36,904 nt of DNA from Treponema sp. UBA3813 (GTDB lineage: Bacteria; Spirochaetota; Spirochaetia; Treponematales; Treponemataceae), in the NCBI GenBank assembly GCA_002368605.1, contig DFEB01000039.1, positions 1 through 36,904 of the forward strand, in the 5' to 3' direction. Each line of letters opens with the position of its first letter. The stretch's first letter is position 1. Shown piece by piece: positions 3,827 through 22,353 of this stretch. The position numbers were made by a program, and so were the translations under genes. Under the pieces are notes generated by a model that worked only from the letters and a program-made list of their open reading frames with translations, had not been told where the DNA came from and searched no databases.

Positions 3827-5194
3827 CTACTTTTTCTCAAAAAATAAAATCATGGGGCTTGAGCTGCGGGCGGTGACTACTCCGTCTTTGACCGGGGCTT
3901 TTGACGCGTCTTCCAGGCGCAAGCCTGTATCAGTGAGTTTGTAGAGGAAATTCACGCCATTTTCCATGCCGGTGAAGTGCATTGTGATTACGCCGTCGTA
4001 AGAAGATTTGAGGGAATTCGCGATGAAGTAATCCAGCGAGACTGTGACCGAGCCAAGAGCCTTGTTTGAGATGATAGCAGGCTGCAAGAGCTTGTAATTG
4101 CTCCAGGTTACAGAATTTTCATTGTTAAATTTAATCGTTCCGTAGTTTGAGCTTTTGAAGACAGGACCTGCGCTTGCGATTCGCTTGAGTTCGTTCTGCC
4201 GGCGAGTCAGTTCGTTTTCAATGACTTTTTCGATATCTTCGCTCAGGGCCACCAAAGTTTCCTGCCTTTGCTTGCCTTTTTCCATGTACTGCAAAATCAT
4301 GATGTCAGAAGCAGCCCCGCGGATGGACATTTTAAGGTTGCTGCCGGTGAATTCATATTCTTTTTCGGCCTTTTTTGTGATGTCTGTGTAAGTCCATGAG
4401 CCGCCAGCATTTTCTGTGTTAAGGACGGCCGTTCCTGCAAAAACTGACTCGGCATTTTCTTCAATGTTGATTCCGAATGAGAAGCCGTAGCTTGGGTTCA
4501 TGCGATTCACATCAATTCGACCGACTTTTATCATATTCTGGAAGGATTCGGGATACCATTCCTTTGCGATGAGATTCTGGATAATCGCCTTGTCGCCGCT
4601 CTTTGAGTCGCCTTTCAAATCATCCATCTTAATAGAAGAATCTTGCATTTGTGCCGAAACATCGAAAGATTCAGCCTGAAAAAGAGCGAGATTGTGAGAA
4701 AAACACCAGCCGTAAGTGCCAGTTTCGGTGAGGACTCTAAGCCACTCGCCTTCCATATTGCCCTTTCCGTTGGTTACGGCCGCACCTGTTCCGCGATAAA
4801 GACAGCGGATAATTTCGTCTTCCCGCAAGCGGTAGACTTGTTTTGAAGTGTTTACCGCATCAGAGCGGATTGGAAGGCCGTCAAGTTTGACCCTGGCGTA
4901 AGTGTGCTCGAATTCAGAAAAACGCTTCTGCTGTTTGAGTGCGCGGGATTTGCTTTCTGGCTCGGTGGCCTGCCAAAGAGGGATTTCGAAATTCTCTTTG
5001 GAGCCAGGAATTGAAACAACATAAACCTGAGAGATATTTGATTTGATGTGAACTTTTAAAAGCGTGCCGTCAGCAATTTCATGCTCTGGATTTGACCACA
5101 AAAGCACGCTGTAACCTAAAGTCTTTGAGCAAGAACAAAAAATCCCCGAAAGAAAAAGGGAAGTTAAAATCAAGATAGAAATTTTCTTCGACAT
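3827..5194 (-). CDS. SH3-domain lipoprotein
   Basis: A 455-residue predicted lipoprotein. The N-terminus MSKKISILILTSLFLSGIFC is a lipoprotein signal with Cys20 (or Cys22) as the lipidation site. Residues about 100-170 resemble a bacterial SH3-like domain (LPIRSDAV... ending in GEWLRVLTETGTYGWCF). The remainder is not recognised. The frame is open 20 codons further upstream (to 5254), but that extension is hydrophilic, would hide the signal peptide and runs into promoter and repeat sequence, so ATG 5194 is preferred. There is no Shine-Dalgarno; a TATAAT sits 10 nt before the ATG. It is first gene of a likely operon with the ABC-F ATPase and perhaps the histidine kinase, and divergent from the phase-variable lipoprotein gene. 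Confidence 0.75.
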   Translation of the reverse strand: MSKKISILILTSLFLSGIFCSCSKTLGYSVLLWSNPEHEIADGTLLKVHIKSNISQVYVVSIPGSKENFEIPLWQATEPESKSRALKQQKRFSEFEHTYARVKLDGLPIRSDAVNTSKQVYRLREDEIIRCLYRGTGAAVTNGKGNMEGEWLRVLTETGTYGWCFSHNLALFQAESFDVSAQMQDSSIKMDDLKGDSKSGDKAIIQNLIAKEWYPESFQNMIKVGRIDVNRMNPSYGFSFGINIEENAESVFAGTAVLNTENAGGSWTYTDITKKAEKEYEFTGSNLKMSIRGAASDIMILQYMEKGKQRQETLVALSEDIEKVIENELTRRQNELKRIASAGPVFKSSNYGTIKFNNENSVTWSNYKLLQPAIISNKALGSVTVSLDYFIANSLKSSYDGVITMHFTGMENGVNFLYKLTDTGLRLEDASKAPVKDGVVTARSSSPMILFFEKK

Positions 5195-5204
5195 AGTGGG
5201 AAAT

Positions 5205-5233
5205 ATTATAGTGAAAAAAGAATGGCAAGTCTC
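5205..5233 (-). promoter_or_regulatory. Promoter of the SH3 lipoprotein operon, near-leaderless
   Basis: TATAAT (minus strand, 5210-5205) lies 17 bp from GAGACT (5233-5228), which shares the GAC core of the -35 consensus. Transcription would start about 3 nt before the ATG at 5194. GAGACT is part of a fragment (AAGTCTCCCCCTT on the plus strand) of the palindromic repeat seen at 14074 and in uvrC. Confidence 0.5.
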
Positions 5234-5272
5234 CCCCTTTATCCATTTATGCACTTAAGTCCGGTGTAAAAG

Positions 5273-5301
5273 TTGACAAGCAAATATTTGTAAGCTATTC
5301 T
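5273..5301 (+). promoter_or_regulatory. Sigma-70-type promoter of the phase-variable lipoprotein/glycosyltransferase operon
   Basis: A perfect TTGACA (5273-5278), a 17-bp spacer and TATTCT (5296-5301). The leader is about 25 nt and contains the Shine-Dalgarno AGGGAG (5323-5328), 5 nt before ATG 5334. It is the strongest promoter match in the window. Confidence 0.75.
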
Positions 5302-5333
5302 TAGGAAGAAGTTCATAAAACTAGGGAGTTTAT

Positions 5334-7038
5334 ATGTTTAAAAAATTATTTCCAATTGCAATCCTTTTTTGTCTTTTTTTCCCTTCATGTTCATCTTTTA
5401 TAGATTCAAACGAAAGCGCAAGTATTAATCTTGAAATTACAGGTAAACTTATAGAAAAGCTTGCAGAATCTTCTACCCCCCCCCCCTTCAAGTGCACGTT
5501 CTATTAGCGGCCTTGAGGGTGTAAGCCAATACAAAATAAAAGCCGTGCTTACGGCAGACGGAAGTGAATATGTAGAGGAAGCTTTTATTCAAAAATCTTC
5601 TTCATCTTCTGTCACCATAACATTCCCGGCCGTTCGGGCAGGCTCAAGGGCAAAGATTATTGTACACATCCTTATTGGAAATTATGAATACGCCCGCGGA
5701 GAGAGTGATGAAATAACAGTTAAAGCAGGCTCTAATTTTCTTATCATAAAGATTGGGAAAAATGCCATTTTACCGATCATTCTTTATAATCAAATCAATT
5801 CTGAAAAAGTCTTTTCATTGTCGTCTAACCCAGATTCTGCTGGCGATTATAAAGTAGAGATAGACAACGACAACAGTGTTCCATTTACTCCCAAAGCAAA
5901 GTTATTTACTTTTATTAATGGAGGCGAATCTCCTGCCGATGGTGATTTAGATATTCCATATACACAATATACATCATATGGCACTACTATAACAACCTAT
6001 TATACGCCAACATACAGTTTTGGAGACAACTGTCTTTACTGGCTTTATCAAAATAAAGTATATGTTTACACAGCACCAGACTATAACCAAACCGATGAAC
6101 TTGACCTTATATCAAAATTTAAGGAAATAAATACAGACTTAGCGAGCGCTACCTTAACAATAAAAGGGCTGGCTTATTACGACGGAAACCTCTACTTTTT
6201 TATTAATTACAACTCTCAGTACTATTTTGCAGCCTATAACCTTGAAGACCAAAATCTTATTTTTGTTAGTTATAATTTTAATACCACACCATGCGACAGC
6301 CTTGCCGTAACAAAAATCGGAGAAAATTACATTCTCTGTTCAATAAATGCTTCCACCATCGCACTTTATATTCAGGAATTTACAATCACAAAAAATGAGA
6401 ACGATGTAAGCATTCTGACTCTAGATGAAACACCATCTAATATCGCTTTTCCTGTTACTGGCTCTGATTTTTATGGCAGCTATGGCCAATACTTTGGCGG
6501 CTTACAGATTTTAGGAAACACTCTCTATGTAACCTGTTATTTTTACAGGGCCACCAGCAATGATGTTCAAGCTTATTTCCTTAATCCCAATACAGATTCT
6601 ATTTTTCCTGTTATGAGTGCAGGAGGACTTGGAAAAATAGATTTGTCTTCTACAAGCTATGAGTTTGGTACGTGGAGCAATGGCGAAAAACTTTTGGGGC
6701 TTTATAAGAATTATTATTACTTAAAAAATGAAAACGACGAATCTTATATAAAATCATCAAATGCAGTAATAATGACTCCACCCGAAGACAAAGCCTCAAG
6801 TTATTTTTACGGTGCAAAGCGAATTATCGCAAAAAAACAAGATGAGATTGTAATTGCAGACGACGGTGCCTATGTAGAGATTAAAGGCGATCGGACGGAT
6901 CCTGATGCAATAAAAAAATGCGTAAACAAAAACCGCGTTGTTACTGTAAACTTAAAAAATGAGTCTATTTCTGCTGTAGATGTAAATGCCAGTTTTAGTT
7001 CAACCTTAGGTACTGGTACTTTCTATGGAATTGAATAA
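5334..7038 (+). CDS. Lipoprotein of unknown function, out of frame at a poly-C tract (phase OFF)
   Basis: From ATG 5334, behind a good Shine-Dalgarno, the frame encodes a lipoprotein signal (MFKKLFPIAILFCLFFPSC, Cys19) and then about 28 residues up to an 11-C run (5476-5486). As sequenced, this frame stops at TAG 5505-5507 after 57 residues. The long downstream frame, open to TAA 7036-7038, lacks any start of its own except a TTG at 5461 with no Shine-Dalgarno. Removing one C (10 C) joins them into a 567-residue lipoprotein whose junction reads TPPPSSARS. The body is rich in Tyr, Asn, Ser and Thr and probably beta-structured; I do not recognise a family. Either the gene is phase-variable or the homopolymer length is a sequencing error. 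Its stop overlaps the glycosyltransferase start. Confidence 0.75.
5476..5486 (+). repeat. Homopolymeric tract of 11 C
   Basis: This is the longest C/G run noticed in the window. It sits inside a coding region, 47 codons after the start, just beyond the signal peptide of the lipoprotein. With 11 C the reading frame is broken; 10 or 13 C would restore it. Position and length are typical of slipped-strand phase-variation tracts. Confidence 0.9.
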
Positions 7039-8072
7039 TGATAAAGTTAAAATCGCTTCCAAAAATTTCTGTATGCATTCCAGTTTTTAATTCGGAAGCG
7101 ACACTTTTTCGCACTCTTGAATCCCTGCCTCCGCAAACTTTTACAGAATGGGAATGTATAATCGTAAATGACGGAAGCAATGGAAAAGACCTTTATCAAA
7201 ATGATTGCAAAAAAATTGTAACCCGATTCAGAAAAAAGTATAAGTTTCCCAAAAATAAAATCTTATACATTGAGCACAGAAAAAATCTTGGTCTGCTTGA
7301 AGCCAGAAGGAGTGCGGTTTTTGCAGCTTCTGCTCAATACATCTGCATCTTAGACAGCGACGATGAGCTTTTGCCGGAGTCTCTTGAATTTTTATATAAA
7401 GCAGCCCAAAAAAGCGATGCGGATATTGTTCATGGTGCGTCAGAAATCCTTTATGATAAAAAAAACTGTAGCGAAGAAATTTTAATGCGGGCAAGTTCCA
7501 TTGAAAAAAAAGCGAATAATATTTACGAAGGCGAGTTGTTAAACCAGGGAATTTTTGACGGCTTTCTTGTAAAATCAAATCATTCAGGCTTTTTGTGGGG
7601 AAAACTTTTTCGCAGGGAACTTTACCTAAAGGCTCTTTCTTACATTCCTTTTTCTAACTGCGTTTTTGCGGAAGACTTTCTTCAGTATTTTTTTATTTCA
7701 CTTTTTGCAAAAAAATATACCGGTATAGAAAACAATGTTTACCGCTACTACATAGATTCCGGAATTTCTTCACTTGCAAAAATAGAAGATTTACAAAAAT
7801 GGCAGAAAATTTCTTCTACGGCAAATGTGTTTACAATCCTTTTTTCAGTCATAAAAGAATTTTCACCGGGCACCTTTAGTCAAAATCAAATGGAAGCCCT
7901 GCGCTCTTTCAGCAAATCCTATCTTGCAAATAATCTGAAGCAGCTGAACGAAGCGGTAGACGAAAAAATCAAAACAGAGGCTCGGCAAATGCTCTGCGAT
8001 TATTGGGGAGAAGACTTTGTGGAATATATCGAAGAAAATACTTACCTCAATCCCGCAAGAGAGCAGCAATGA
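7038..8072 (+). CDS. Family 2 glycosyltransferase (GT-A fold)
   Basis: A 344-residue cytoplasmic glycosyltransferase. The N-terminal GT2 domain begins at residue 9 with KISVCIPVFNSEATL. It has VNDGS (about 43-47) for nucleotide-sugar binding and the metal-binding DSDD at 106-109, followed by an acceptor-side domain with a conserved WGKLFRRELY-like segment (about 187). No membrane helix is visible. The acceptor and sugar are unknown. Its ATG overlaps the stop of the preceding lipoprotein by one base (TAATG), so its translation is probably coupled to that of the upstream lipoprotein. It is AT-rich compared with mnmG and the flanking genes, as is the lipoprotein, which suggests the two moved or evolved together. 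Confidence 0.9.
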   Translation: MIKLKSLPKISVCIPVFNSEATLFRTLESLPPQTFTEWECIIVNDGSNGKDLYQNDCKKIVTRFRKKYKFPKNKILYIEHRKNLGLLEARRSAVFAASAQYICILDSDDELLPESLEFLYKAAQKSDADIVHGASEILYDKKNCSEEILMRASSIEKKANNIYEGELLNQGIFDGFLVKSNHSGFLWGKLFRRELYLKALSYIPFSNCVFAEDFLQYFFISLFAKKYTGIENNVYRYYIDSGISSLAKIEDLQKWQKISSTANVFTILFSVIKEFSPGTFSQNQMEALRSFSKSYLANNLKQLNEAVDEKIKTEARQMLCDYWGEDFVEYIEENTYLNPAREQQ

Positions 8073-8093
8073 CCATTCTATCTGTCACCGCAC

Positions 8094-8122
8094 TTTCAAC
8101 AAGACTAATTTTTCACTATAAT
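8094..8122 (+). promoter_or_regulatory. mnmG promoter, near-leaderless
   Basis: TTTCAA (8094-8099), a 17-bp spacer and TATAAT (8117-8122). Only 10 nt separate the -10 from ATG 8133 and there is no Shine-Dalgarno, so the transcript would carry a leader of about 3 nt. The -35 TTTCAA and its context CTTTCAACA also occur at the murJ promoter. Confidence 0.55.
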
Positions 8123-8132
8123 CATTCTCATT

Positions 8133-10190
8133 ATGTCTGGATTTTATGATTTTTATGATGTAGCTGTCGTTGGCGGCGGTCACGCTGGCATTGAGGCGGC
8201 TTTGGCTTCTGCCCGCATGGGTCTTAAAACGCTTTTGATTACCCAAACCATCGATTCTATTTCCCGCATGAGCTGTAACCCTTCCATCGGCGGAATCGCA
8301 AAGGGCAACATTGTCCGGGAAATTGACGCTCTGGGCGGCGAAATGGGAAAACTCATCGACAAATCAATGATTCAGTTCCGTATGCTCAATAAAAGCCGGG
8401 GGCCGGCAGTTCAGGCTCCGCGAAGCCAGGCAGACAAAATCCTTTATTCAAGCATTGCCCGCCAGACCGTTGAGACCACGCCCAACCTTTACACTCTCAT
8501 GGACACGGTGGTGGATTTGCTCACCACGGAAAGCGAAACTCCCCTCCCCCCTTCATCAAGCTCTCAGTCAGGTCAGATTCCAGGGGAATTCACGGAGACT
8601 AAAATCCTTACACAAGCCGCAAAATCAGGGAAGCGGCAGAAAATCACGGCAGTCGTCACTGAGCGGGGCAGGCTGATTCCCGTGCGCTCTGTTGTCCTTA
8701 CGACGGGAACATTTTTGGGTGGCCGCATTTTTATCGGTGAGTACGATGCTCCTTGTGGTCGTATCGGCGAGCAGGCAGCTTTCGGGCTTACCCAGAGCCT
8801 CAACCGTCTGGGCTTTACCACAGGCCGCTTAAAGACAGGCACTCCCCCGCGAATCTTAAAGCACACTGTTGATTTTACCAATCTTGAGATTCAGGCAGGA
8901 GATGAAGTGATTGTTCCCTTCTCATTTGAAGACGAGGAAGTCACCAGACCGCAAGTTCCCTGCTACTTAGTCTACACCAACGAAAAAACTCACGAGATTA
9001 TCCGCTCGAACATTGGCCGCTCGCCACTCTATTCTGGCAAAATCCACGGAATCGGCCCCCGCTACTGTCCTTCCATCGAAGACAAGGTAATGCGCTTTGC
9101 CGAACGCGAACGGCACCAGCTTTTTGTGGAGCCAGAAAGTCTTGCCACCGATGAAATTTACCTGAACGGTCTTTCTTCAAGCCTTCCCGAAGAAGTGCAG
9201 GACGCATTTTTACGCACTTTGCCCGGTTTTGAGAACTGCCATGTTGCCCGACCGGGTTACGCCGTCGAATATGACTATGTTGAGCCGACCCAGCTTTATC
9301 CTTCTTTGGAGACAAAGCGGGTGGCAGGGCTTTTTAACGCAGGCCAGATTAACGGAACTTCGGGGTATGAGGAAGCCGCCGGTCAGGGGCTGGTCGCAGG
9401 AATCAACGCCGCACTTTATGCACGCGCCCACAAAGAACTTTGCGGGCCTTTGTGCCAGTCACACGCGGGAATGGGGCAAGTTCCGGCCAGCGCAGAACCA
9501 ACTGCATTTGCATTCAAACCGCACTTTACAACAGAAGAAATCAAGCATTTCGCAGAAATTTCTGAAAAAGAAACCCACGCGGTCAACTCTCTCCTTGAAG
9601 ATTTCCAAAAATCTTGCGGAAAGGAAAATTTCCACAAAATCCCGGAATACGAGCCTCTTATTCTGGGGCGGGACGAAGCCTACATCGGAGTTCTGATTGA
9701 CGATTTGGTCACACTGGGAACAAAAGAGCCTTACCGAATGTTCACGGCACGAGCCGAGTACCGTTTAAAGCTCCGCCACGACACAGCAGACCGCCGCCTG
9801 GCAGAAAAGGCTTTTAAAGTCGGAATCAAGAGCGAAAGTCAGTTCAATGCGACGAAACTCAAATACCAGCAGGTTGATGAAGCCACGGAACTTTTGCTTA
9901 AAGACGCGAATGCCGAAAATCCGGGATTCAGCCCAATCGTTTGGGAAATAGCACAGGAAGACGCAAAATACAAGTATTACATCGAAAAGCAGGACGCTCG
10001 CGTGGCAAAAATGCACAAAATGGAGCATTTTCACATTCCGGCAGATTTTGACTACTCAAAAATTCCAGCCCTGTCGGGAGAAAGCCGCCAGAAACTCGAA
10101 GCTGTTCGACCGCTCACACTTGGTCAGGCCAGTCGAATCTCTGGAATCCGCAACAGCGATATAATGTTACTGATGGTGTACTTGAAATAA
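8133..10190 (+). CDS. mnmG: tRNA uridine-5-carboxymethylaminomethyl modification enzyme MnmG (GidA)
   Basis: The FAD-binding subunit that, with the GTPase MnmE, modifies the wobble uridine (U34) of certain tRNAs. The N-terminal dinucleotide-binding motif is VVGGGHAGIEAALA (about 11-24). Conserved MnmG stretches follow: MSCNPSIGGIAKG, LNKSRGPAVQAPRSQAD, GTFLGGRIFIGE, RLKTGTPPRI, GRSPLYSGKIHGIGPRYCPSIEDK, NGTSGYEEAAGQGLVAGINAA and FTARAEYRLKLRHDTADRRL. The C-terminal helical domain ends in SRISGIRNSDIMLL. At 685 residues it is longer than the usual 620-630; the excess is a Pro/Ser-rich insert at about residues 131-166. It has its own promoter and is not in an operon with mnmE here. Confidence 0.98.
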   Translation: MSGFYDFYDVAVVGGGHAGIEAALASARMGLKTLLITQTIDSISRMSCNPSIGGIAKGNIVREIDALGGEMGKLIDKSMIQFRMLNKSRGPAVQAPRSQADKILYSSIARQTVETTPNLYTLMDTVVDLLTTESETPLPPSSSSQSGQIPGEFTETKILTQAAKSGKRQKITAVVTERGRLIPVRSVVLTTGTFLGGRIFIGEYDAPCGRIGEQAAFGLTQSLNRLGFTTGRLKTGTPPRILKHTVDFTNLEIQAGDEVIVPFSFEDEEVTRPQVPCYLVYTNEKTHEIIRSNIGRSPLYSGKIHGIGPRYCPSIEDKVMRFAERERHQLFVEPESLATDEIYLNGLSSSLPEEVQDAFLRTLPGFENCHVARPGYAVEYDYVEPTQLYPSLETKRVAGLFNAGQINGTSGYEEAAGQGLVAGINAALYARAHKELCGPLCQSHAGMGQVPASAEPTAFAFKPHFTTEEIKHFAEISEKETHAVNSLLEDFQKSCGKENFHKIPEYEPLILGRDEAYIGVLIDDLVTLGTKEPYRMFTARAEYRLKLRHDTADRRLAEKAFKVGIKSESQFNATKLKYQQVDEATELLLKDANAENPGFSPIVWEIAQEDAKYKYYIEKQDARVAKMHKMEHFHIPADFDYSKIPALSGESRQKLEAVRPLTLGQASRISGIRNSDIMLLMVYLK

Positions 10191-18616: not shown

Positions 18617-21496
18617 TTATTCTTTGTAGAATTTGAAGTTTTTGTGGGTATCTCTCAACAATGTAGCAGTTTTTGCTGTATCACTTTTATCTACAATGAA
18701 AGATGTTTGATTAATGGAATAGTACCAAGTTGAATCTGTGTCTTCAAAAGTGATTTGTGTAAGCCCTGAATCCGCAAATGCATACTTTTCGATTTGTGAA
18801 ACATTTTTAGGAATAGTGACTTCTGACAACGAAGTACATTTATAGAAAGTATATTCATTGATGGCTGTCACCCCCTCCGGAATATTGACTTCTTTAAGCG
18901 AAGTACACTTATAAAAAGCACGCTTCCCGATGCTGGTCACACTGTCTGAGATTTTGATTTCCGACAGCAAACTACAATTATAGAAAGCGTCCTCACCGAT
19001 GCTGGTCACGCCAGCTGGAATAGTGATTGCAGACAGCGAAGTGCAGTTGTAGAAAGCCCCGTCAGCGATGCTGGTCACACCCCCTGAAATTGTGATTTTT
19101 TCAAGCGAAGTACAGTTATAGAAAGCTTCCTCGCCGATGCTCGTCACGCCAGCTGGAATAGTGATCGCAGACAGTGAAGTGCAGTTATAGAAAGTATATT
19201 CATTGATGGCTGTCACCCCCTCCGGAATATTGACTTCTGAAAGCGAAGTGCAGTCAGAGAAAGCACAGTCACCGATGCTCGTCACGCTGTCTGGAATATG
19301 AATGGTTGTTACCGTTGAACACTTCCTGAATAAGCAGGAGCTAATAGCTGTTACCCCGTCTTGAAATGTTATATTTGTCAGAGAAGAACAGCCTGAAAAG
19401 ACATTTTGGCCCGTGGCAGAGCTGTAGTTGTTCGTGGAAGTGTTGCCACAAATTGTTACATGCCTTAGAGAAGTACAGTTATAGAAAGCTTGATTACCGA
19501 TGTCAGTCACGCTGGCTGGAATAGTGATTTCTGAAAGCGAAGTACAGCCATAGAAGGCATAGTTACCGATGTCCGTCACGCTGTCCGGGATTATAATTTC
19601 TGCGAGTGAAGTACAGCCATAGAAAACACCCCACTCGATGCTGGTCACGCTGTCTGGGATTGTGATTTCTGTAAGTGAAGTACAGCCCTTAAAAGCATAG
19701 TCACCGATGTCCGTCACGCTGTCTGGAATATAAATGGTTGTTACCGTTGAACACTCATTGAATAAGTAGGAGCTAATAGTTGTTACCCCGGCTTTAAACG
19801 TTATGTTTGTCAGAGAAGAACAGCCTGAAAAGACATGAGCATCATAGTCCGGGAAAATGTTGCCACAGATTGTTACATTCCTTAGAGAAGTACAGGCTGC
19901 GAAAGTTTGCTTACCGATGTCCGTCACGCTGGCTGGAATAGTGATTTCTGTCAGTTTGCTACAGCCAGAGAAAGCGTAATCACCGATGTCCGTCACGCTG
20001 TCCGGGATTATAATTTCTGCGAGCGAAGTGCATCCAGAGAAAGCGTGGGGCTCAATACGCCACACGCTGTCTGGGATAGTGATTTCTGACAGTTTGCTAC
20101 AGCCAGAGAAAGCATAGTCACCGATGAACCCCACGCTGTCTGGAATTGTGATTGCAGTCAGCGAACTACAGCCAGAGAAAACGTAATCACCGATGTATGG
20201 CACGCCTTCTGGAATTGTGATTGCAGACAGCGAAGTACAGCCATGGAAAGCCCAGTCACCAATGCTTGTCACGCCGTCTGGAATGGTGATTTTTACGAGC
20301 GAAGTACAGTCTTTGAAAGCAGAGTTGCCGATAGTTGTTACGCCCGTAATCTTGGACATATCAAGGGTAAGGGAACGCTCAGATGAAATTCCTGCGTCTT
20401 TCAGTTTTGAGCAAAAGTCAGAAAACTCCTCATTTGTCCATTCGCCTAGCAATCGGATTGTATAGGCATCTCCATATTCGGAACTCGCAAAATTTGCATT
20501 CTTGTAGGTACTTGCACTTACGGCACAGCCTTCATACCACTTTGCGTACAGAACGACATTTTCTGCCTGACTTCCTGAAATCTCTGTTACGGGCTGGCCA
20601 CTTCCGTCTGCGCTTGTGTACCAGCCTAAAAATGTGTAGCCGCTTTTTTTCATTTGGTCTGTGCTTGGAAGTTCGACTAGATTGTCATAGCGGGTGTAAA
20701 GTGTTTTTGGCGTGTAAGAGCTTTCGTATGTTCCTTCTTCATTTAAGGTGATTGTGTACACTTCGTTCACTCTTATGTCCCGCTCGGCTTCGCTTGTGGC
20801 GGAGTCTATAATTTTAACAAGTTCGCTGAATGTGCCTACAAGCAAAGTGCAGTTTTCGTCTGCGTAGAACCATGCCTTCAGGCGGTATGTACCTGAATCT
20901 GCCTCATAGTCATATACTGCTGTTGCTGTGTCTGATTCTTCTGAGGGGGTAATTGATAAGCTGCACCATGAGATTTCTTCATCAGTGTCCCTGGTGTACA
21001 AGCCGGCCTTTGCAGCTTTTACGGCGGTGGCGCTTGGAATCTTGAAAGTTACATTCACATATCCACTAGAACTAGATTTTTCTTCGAGAGAAAGCGTGAA
21101 GTGGAGCGTGTTTTTTCCCTGTACAATCTCTTTGTTTGAGATAGTGCCAACAAATTGAGTGTTTCCATTCGCCGCCGTAAGCTTAAACTCATACCATGTT
21201 CCTGTGGAAACAGCAAAATTTCCTTTTAGAAGGTCTTCGTATGTAGAAAAGGAGCCGCTACCGTCGCTGCTGCGAAACTCGGTTTCTTCATCGCTTTCTG
21301 TTTTCTTTCCGGAGAGTGCAAAATAAGTCATTTCTTCCAAAGTGAAGTTTGGCTGTATCGTTCTCTCGGCTCCTGCCTCAATGCAGATGTATGTGCCGGT
21401 ATTTGTATTTTCGTCTTCGCTGGAATCAATGTTTTTGCAGCCGCTTATTGTGAGGAGTGAAAGGATTCCTGCAATAAATAAGACATGTCGTTTCAT
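18617..21496 (-). CDS. BspA-type leucine-rich repeat surface lipoprotein
   Basis: A 959-residue predicted lipoprotein: signal MKRHVLFIAGILSLLTISGC with Cys20 as lipidation site. Residues about 30-240 are probably beta-rich and unrecognised; about 265-325 form one InlB-type repeat (GYTFLGWYTSADGSG, LYAKW). From about 380 to 935 there are some 22 leucine-rich repeats of 23 residues with consensus SLxxITIPxxVTxIGxxAFxxCT, the BspA or LRR_5 type linked in other bacteria to adhesion. The short C-terminal cap ends in TLLRDTHKNFKFYKE. The ATG overlaps the stop of the upstream lipoprotein gene (TAATG), so the two are coupled. Expression is probably set by the GGATAA operator region at 22374-22464. 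Confidence 0.93.
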   Translation of the reverse strand: MKRHVLFIAGILSLLTISGCKNIDSSEDENTNTGTYICIEAGAERTIQPNFTLEEMTYFALSGKKTESDEETEFRSSDGSGSFSTYEDLLKGNFAVSTGTWYEFKLTAANGNTQFVGTISNKEIVQGKNTLHFTLSLEEKSSSSGYVNVTFKIPSATAVKAAKAGLYTRDTDEEISWCSLSITPSEESDTATAVYDYEADSGTYRLKAWFYADENCTLLVGTFSELVKIIDSATSEAERDIRVNEVYTITLNEEGTYESSYTPKTLYTRYDNLVELPSTDQMKKSGYTFLGWYTSADGSGQPVTEISGSQAENVVLYAKWYEGCAVSASTYKNANFASSEYGDAYTIRLLGEWTNEEFSDFCSKLKDAGISSERSLTLDMSKITGVTTIGNSAFKDCTSLVKITIPDGVTSIGDWAFHGCTSLSAITIPEGVPYIGDYVFSGCSSLTAITIPDSVGFIGDYAFSGCSKLSEITIPDSVWRIEPHAFSGCTSLAEIIIPDSVTDIGDYAFSGCSKLTEITIPASVTDIGKQTFAACTSLRNVTICGNIFPDYDAHVFSGCSSLTNITFKAGVTTISSYLFNECSTVTTIYIPDSVTDIGDYAFKGCTSLTEITIPDSVTSIEWGVFYGCTSLAEIIIPDSVTDIGNYAFYGCTSLSEITIPASVTDIGNQAFYNCTSLRHVTICGNTSTNNYSSATGQNVFSGCSSLTNITFQDGVTAISSCLFRKCSTVTTIHIPDSVTSIGDCAFSDCTSLSEVNIPEGVTAINEYTFYNCTSLSAITIPAGVTSIGEEAFYNCTSLEKITISGGVTSIADGAFYNCTSLSAITIPAGVTSIGEDAFYNCSLLSEIKISDSVTSIGKRAFYKCTSLKEVNIPEGVTAINEYTFYKCTSLSEVTIPKNVSQIEKYAFADSGLTQITFEDTDSTWYYSINQTSFIVDKSDTAKTATLLRDTHKNFKFYKE
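18780..20345 (-). repeat. Tandem 69-bp coding repeats of the LRR protein
   Basis: About 22 in-frame units of 69 bp encode the 23-residue repeats. A higher-order duplication is visible: a block containing VTICGN, then SLTNITF..GVT.ISS.LF..CS, then TVTTI.IPDSVT.IGD.AF, is present twice (about 19280-19520 and 19720-19940). Another, EVNIPEGVTAINEYTFY, also occurs twice (about 18830-18890 and 19190-19250). Confidence 0.85.
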
Positions 21497-22353
21497 TAGT
21501 TACCCCCTGCTGTGATATAGACCCGTGCTGAATAAAAAGCTCCGTTTTTTTCGGCTTCCACGGTCACTTCGTAAAGTCCTTTAGCCCAAGTTGCGGTGTC
21601 GACTTCAAGACTGGCCTTTTCGGCATTTGTCTGAACTTCACCGTCAATTCGCCAGACATAGTTCGCAAAGCCTTCGTCTGCCGTGAGCGTCCAGAGACTG
21701 CCGTTTTTCTCTGCCGTGATGGAAATTTCTGTGTCGTCTTTAATAAGTTCAGCGGTAACTGAGGAAGTCTCTTTCCATTTTGCATAAAGCTGTATGTAGT
21801 TTGTCAGAGTGTAAGAACCCGCAAGAACTTTATGGTCATCATCGTACCAGCCGTCAAAAATGTAGCCGTCTTCTGTCGTGATTTCCGGCAAATGCACGCT
21901 TGTAAGGACTGTATTTTCTTTAAGCCAGATTTCATCGGGGGCGGTTCCGTGGGCTGTCTGATAGTTTACGCGATATGTTTTTGTCCACTTTGCCACAAGC
22001 TTCACATCTTTTGTCACTGTGTAGTTTCCAGCAATTGCCAGTGTGTCGCCGTCATACCAGCCGTCGAAAACATAACCTTCACCCAAAGAATCATATCTTA
22101 CTTCGGAAAGCACGGGCATCTCTTTTTCCGTGAGAACTGTGTTTTCCGTGACGGTGATTTTTTCTACGCTCCTCCAATCGCTTTCATAGGTGACTGTGTA
22201 TGTTTTGGAATTTTGGCTTGGCTGTTTGCTACCACCATTATTCTCTGTGTACTCCGTGTTTTCGCCGCCAGAAGTCGATGTGCTGCAGGCAATTAGCCCT
22301 GCGATGATAAAAATCCCGCAGAGAAAACGCGTCATTTTTTTTAAATGAATCAT
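21496..22353 (-). CDS. Lipoprotein with two InlB-type repeats
   Basis: A 285-residue lipoprotein: signal ending LIAC with Cys23, then a low-complexity linker rich in Ser, Asn and Gly. Two InlB/Listeria-Bacteroides repeats follow (about 55-125 with YVFDGWYDGD and LVAKW; about 128-192 with YIFDGWYDDD and LYAKW). The C-terminal domain (about 195-285) looks Ig-like (WTLTADEGFANYVWRIDG... GLYEVTVEAEK). Probably surface-exposed; partner unknown. The Shine-Dalgarno AAGGAG (22368-22363) lies 9 nt before ATG 22353. First gene of a two-gene operon with the LRR protein, which also carries an InlB-type repeat, so the two may act together at the cell surface. Confidence 0.88.
   Translation of the reverse strand: MIHLKKMTRFLCGIFIIAGLIACSTSTSGGENTEYTENNGGSKQPSQNSKTYTVTYESDWRSVEKITVTENTVLTEKEMPVLSEVRYDSLGEGYVFDGWYDGDTLAIAGNYTVTKDVKLVAKWTKTYRVNYQTAHGTAPDEIWLKENTVLTSVHLPEITTEDGYIFDGWYDDDHKVLAGSYTLTNYIQLYAKWKETSSVTAELIKDDTEISITAEKNGSLWTLTADEGFANYVWRIDGEVQTNAEKASLEVDTATWAKGLYEVTVEAEKNGAFYSARVYITAGGN

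Follow-up and report, generated by a model that had tools for sequence, protein, structure and literature searches.

In the Neisseria haemoglobin receptor genes, an in-frame poly-G or poly-C run near the 5′ end reportedly sets expression ON or OFF according to its register, and the switching is said to have been measured.

In Treponema pallidum, promoter poly-G tracts of variable length alter transcription of the outer membrane protein genes tprL, tprE/G/J, and Tp0126, with 7 to 11 Gs in tprL within isolates (accessible portion of PMC7864442). A survey of tracts in treponemes, which counts G/C tracts of at least 7 and cites slippage in the syphilis treponemes, gives the fewest (9 G, 6 C) for the rumen commensal T. 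ruminis (accessible portion of PMC8049484); this speaks against a general claim for commensals. Whether multi-locus phase variation is restricted to pathogens is described as a major question (PMC11868660, in the part of the text available).

The gene considered here lies in a window of 36,904 bases (the whole stretch of DNA that was analysed), and is very probably a contingency (phase-variable) gene operating by homopolymer slippage.

Organization of the locus and its C tract

All features of the locus are on the + strand. A promoter-like TTGACA-17-TATTCT, with 10 of 12 consensus matches, occupies 5273–5301, and a Shine-Dalgarno (SD) sequence, AGGGAG, is found at 5323–5328, 5 nt before the ATG at 5334. 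The frame beginning there (the signal frame) runs from 5334 to 5507, with its TAG at 5505–5507. Read by eye, it has the signal peptide and lipobox cysteine of a bacterial lipoprotein: the signal peptide is MFKKLFPIAILFCLFFPSC, and the lipobox, FFPSC, has its Cys at residue 19. The Pro at position −2 is unusual, and the window signal is missed by both script patterns used, a strict one that missed most signals and the looser one adopted afterwards; lipoboxes in the family relatives described below are clearer. The C11 tract, the proposed switch, is at 5476–5486. The lipoprotein body is in another register, in a long frame at 5455–7038 (assigned from the frame listing and homology) that is free of stops from 5455 to 7035 (1,581 bases) and closed by TAA at 7036–7038; its earliest listed start, TTG at 5461, comes without a signal peptide. 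The earlier note on this DNA had described these same elements, including the lack of a credible start for the long frame, and its frame arithmetic is correct: deletion of one C would fuse signal and body into a 567-residue lipoprotein. Its strong promoter fares less well. The hexamers are present, but the 5150–8150 interval contains 9 promoter-like sites versus 9.6 in shuffles, so the site is credible as a promoter by position only.

The gene at 7038–8072 encodes a GT2 glycosyltransferase (PF00535, E 2.3e-24). Its ATG shares one base with the lipoprotein stop, and the same switch may therefore also lower GT2, through lost translational coupling. Among family frames with at least 250 bases downstream, a GT2 homologue follows directly, or within the same frame, in 40 of the 73 outside a T. 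succinifaciens-like clade, and in none of the 17 inside it; identity is 61% and 58% for the T. bryantii versions. One 1131-residue frame (L007/L122, G035:C117) passes from lipoprotein into GT2 homologue via unknown residues, and could reflect either masking or a gap at the junction, or fusion of the pair.

Slipped-strand mispairing in C11 would change the tract length and thereby decide whether the lipoprotein body is in register with its signal peptide. At the assembled length, translation would yield just a short exported peptide that ends at 5507, and the lipoprotein, presumably located on the outer surface, would be OFF; it would be ON in different cells or lineages. GT2 might be lowered along with it where coupling is lost. 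Phages, host immunity, or attachment could be the driver.

Apart from C11, no C/G run in the window exceeds 6 bases, and a first-order Markov model leads one to expect 0.004 C runs of at least 11 there; across the whole 2,602,625-base genome, no other C/G run is as long. In that genome there are 153, 14, 4, 6, 2, and 1 C/G runs of exactly 6, 7, 8, 9, 10, and 11, respectively; the 13 observed of at least 8 compare with ~1.4 extrapolated from the drop between 6 and 7. The first-order Markov estimate at genome scale, using window frequencies, is less surprising (~27 runs of at least 8, ~0.3 of at least 11), so it is the shape of the distribution that points to an excess of long runs. As in other contingency loci, a repeat of hypermutable type, longer than chance would give, is found toward the 5′ end of the gene.

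The source genome is a draft (83 contigs, 88.5% complete), which makes the exact length of C11 uncertain, and C/G homopolymers are error-prone. An assembly or sequencing error within the tract could thus be responsible for the frame break; the real gene would then be a single frame, and its long C run need not switch. We consider this unlikely, since out-of-register copies are found in several other genomes, including four of the seven family copies first found in G222 (putatively the finished T. succinifaciens chromosome), and both the tract and the family pattern would remain even if the length were wrong here.

Other long C/G tracts in the window's genome include three of 10, 9, and 9 within 5.5 kb (G000:C32 32144–32153, 34166–34174, and 37661–37669; L021, L024, and L026), in frames with Methyltransf_23, FkbM methyltransferase, and SIS domains; in L021, the ATG frame preceding the tract is in a different register from the long frame. 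A G9 (G000:C19 37715–37723, L019) follows a lipobox-like LDSC, with the signal frame out of register with a 243-codon frame, making this gene, which has no Pfam match, another candidate switch built like that of the window gene. A C8 is upstream of a CsgG-like lipoprotein gene (G000:C33 34192–34199, L029), a G9 is at the SD position ahead of an ATG (G000:C68 34117–34125, L039), and a G10 is within a GGDEF-EAL gene (G000:C68 17949–17958, L036). Elsewhere in the window, two adjacent − strand genes have lipoprotein-like starts and no C/G tract longer than 6; they encode a BspA-type leucine-rich-repeat protein with 69-base tandem repeats (18617–21496) and a List_Bact_rpt protein (21496–22353).

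The family of the lipoprotein body

The body has no recognised family, as originally proposed: the long frame has no match at E ≤ 1 in Pfam or NCBIfam, and at that threshold no link through either to T. pallidum Tpr or other named treponemal outer membrane families. The signal frame has one sub-threshold Pfam match (E 0.16). A family profile found nothing among PDB chains at E ≤ 1, and a Pfam search with 18 relatives gave 13 families, each weakly matching one relative (best E 0.003).

As a single query, the long frame matches 29 of 200 congeneric genomes, its own included (E ≤ 1e-6), and an 18-sequence profile matches 107 of the 200 (E ≤ 1e-5); copy numbers per genome are lower bounds, with at most seven candidates in each genome scored. 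Among 59 relatives from several families, the 13 genomes that match (again including its own) are all of the window's genus. The closest relatives of the window body are only ~30–40% identical to it, and no near or same-site orthologue of the gene was found among the 200 congeneric genomes.

This genus includes the gut commensals T. bryantii and, putatively, T. succinifaciens, and the named relatives that carry the family are gut or rumen organisms, not pathogens. A first scan of named genomes found no family relative. A second found 8 loci; among six frames inspected, a tract of at least 7 near the start was seen only in T. bryantii XBD1002 (L111). The T. bryantii NK4A124 member, about as close as XBD1002, has no C/G tract in its 5′ region. 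A further member (L073, ~2482–2616, in G028) has a clearer signal peptide in another frame without a C/G tract of at least 7, and its frame break may be a frameshift of another type, or an error.

No report of this family, or of phase variation of this kind in T. bryantii or T. succinifaciens, was found in the open-access literature (subscription papers were outside its scope), and the accessible portion of PMC8049484 has no description of the family.

Tracts, registers, and selection at family 5′ ends

Tracts were counted in 80 stretches from congeneric genomes, around part of the profile-search loci. These contain 99 family frames (E ≤ 1e-5), 90 of them with the 5′ region, defined as −150 to +400 relative to the frame start, inside the stretch. 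A C/G run of at least 7 is present in 29 of the 90; removing 4 short signal frames of genes already counted leaves 25 of 86 with a tract and 61 without, the 86 including at least one fragment and near-identical copies common to G086 and G093.

The 5′ regions make up 12.5% of the bases (47,935) and hold 25 of the 33 tracts, while the remaining 334,458 bases hold 8 (binomial P 1.4e-16, ignoring kinship). Three related genomes, G021, G178, and G222 (the T. succinifaciens-like clade), account for 16 of the 25; with this clade left out, 9 of 70 genes have a tract versus 0.92 expected (Poisson P 6e-7), or 6 versus 0.92 if shared sites, as identified by judgement, are counted once (P 4e-4). Tract state is clustered on a quick tree of 88 rows, with 11 changes versus a shuffle mean of 23.8; this tree wrongly includes L179 and L187, which share only an N-terminal part with the family. 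Its starred branches force at least 4 changes of state.

The earlier note had proposed that orthologues without a homopolymer at this site would refute switching. Taken literally this is what is found, as every relative examined lacks a tract at the window's exact site; other relatives, however, have one at a different place in the 5′ region, an indication of repeated independent gain. The repeat characteristic of a contingency locus does therefore recur within the family, with lengths that differ between copies, though not at the window's site. A substantial share of the relatives have similar runs at starts or promoters, among them copies from a harmless pig-gut species.

By register, the 25 relatives with tracts comprise 11 with the tract in the coding frame and the frames out of register, 10 in register, and 4 with the tract upstream of the gene; counting the window's C11, there are 12 out-of-register coding tracts. 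The out-of-register relatives have G9 (G021a, d, e, G178d, and G222c, e, f), G7 (G021c and G222a), G8 (G178a), or G10 (G118). Those in register have G8 (G021b, G178b, c, and G222b, d, g) or G9 (G013, G150, and two of G112). Upstream tracts are found in two T. bryantii XBD1002 genes (a G9 in TTGACG-18-TATAAT and a G8 in TTGACG-17-TATAAT), in G035 (a C8 upstream of a promoter-like site), and in G024 (a C9 just before the frame). The adjacent paralogues G222d and G222e have identical 24-nt flanks on both sides of their tracts, with G8 in one and G9 in the other.

Signal and body out of register could also be the mark of a pseudogene, with a one-off frameshift in a gene being lost, and one T. succinifaciens copy (L228) does look decayed. 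The window body, however, is open over its whole 1,581 bases, and the frameshift is located in the longest homopolymer of the genome. Bodies of the out-of-register relatives are likewise open, at ~400–580 codons, and in seven pairs with both copies out of register, dN/dS downstream of the tract is 0.37–0.45 (for example, 0.40 for G021c/G222a and 0.37 for G021e/G178d; the pairs share copies and are not independent, and the values are without confidence limits). We therefore regard gene loss as very improbable. In the contingency-gene reading, the relatives' pairs suggest that the downstream frame has been kept functional while out of register. Higher values were obtained for G222d/e (0.87) and G222b/c (0.81), which may represent either diversification or relaxed constraint.

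Tracts beyond the family, and comparison with known systems

The putative T. succinifaciens genome G222 has at least 52 C/G tracts of 8 or more, among the first 100 of 106 eight-base C/G windows. Promoter spacers were defined as 13–18 nt between a −35-like hexamer (at least 5 of 6 matches) and a −10-like hexamer (at least 4 of 6). They contain 16 of the 52 tracts examined in G222, versus 40 of 2000 random positions in the same stretches, and 4 of 8 in T. bryantii XBD1002; in the window's own genome they contain none of 12 (a 13th is at a contig end). Signal-like sequences are near 16 of 46 G222 tracts, a count made without a control comparison.

Long homopolymers can cause slippage of RNA polymerase or ribosomes in other bacteria. 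This could act alongside DNA slippage, and if some full-length product were made in this way the tract would set a level of expression, rather than turning it on and off. The promoter-spacer tracts, for which frameshifting is irrelevant, and the presence of coding copies in both registers make it a very unlikely account of the locus. Phase variation of the lipoprotein through its homopolymer, as first proposed from the window, is strongly supported, by the relatives rather than by the window sequence alone, because family 5′ ends are hot spots for tracts, both registers coexist, and promoter spacers of XBD1002 contain tracts. The interpretation in the note as a whole is supported in part, its surface-exposed variable antigen being still a conjecture.

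In G222, two more genes, L179 (G9) and L187 (G10), have a signal, tract, and small N-terminal domain like those of the family, followed by a different body; the signal is out of register in both. This N-terminal module occurs with a tract of at least 7 in 9 genes of G222, these two included; 3 of the 9 are in register and 6 are out of it. The tenth copy, the decayed-looking L228, has a G6 run and a signal frame that stops before it, and L229, a weak eleventh match, is without a tract. The window's genome gave no hit to the module (in a search without a positive control), and the window gene is therefore not called a copy of it. Six other G222 loci (L177, L188, L207, L209, L214, and L218) have tracts of 9–10 between TTGACA-like and TATAAT-like hexamers, with spacers of 13–16, ahead of other lipoprotein-like genes.

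A broader picture can be offered only tentatively, with slightly less than even confidence: commensal gut treponemes may have a multi-locus switchable surface, made up of many lipoprotein and glycan genes with tracts in frames and promoter spacers; in T. succinifaciens-like strains a portable N-terminal on/off module (signal peptide, tract, and small domain) would precede differing bodies, and in the window lineage the switch would possibly reach GT2. If so, large phase-variable repertoires are no mark of pathogens. Since, within one family, this type of switch is present at several sites and in two modes (frame and promoter spacing), selection can be compared across species, and its presence in T. 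bryantii, putative T. succinifaciens, and unnamed congeners makes the question of restriction to pathogens testable in a culturable type strain, for which pathogenicity is given as 'none' and the biosafety level as 1 (PMC3156407).

The mechanism is already known; what seems new is the family itself, the fact that tracts have captured it repeatedly, and the scale seen in a commensal. As in the Neisseria haemoglobin receptors, a homopolymer is in frame near the 5′ end, and register would set ON or OFF. The protein family and phylum are different, and switching here is inferred.

In number of tracts, G222, with its 52 or more of at least 8, differs from T. ruminis, with 9 G and 6 C of at least 7 (accessible portion of PMC8049484). 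Compared with the T. pallidum poly-G genes, as described in the available part of PMC7864442, the T. bryantii promoter-spacer tracts look the same, and the organisms share a broad genus name. Unlike those genes, the window gene has a body that is an unrelated protein with no Pfam family, its tract is of C and within the coding frame, after the lipobox, and the relatives named here are gut organisms.
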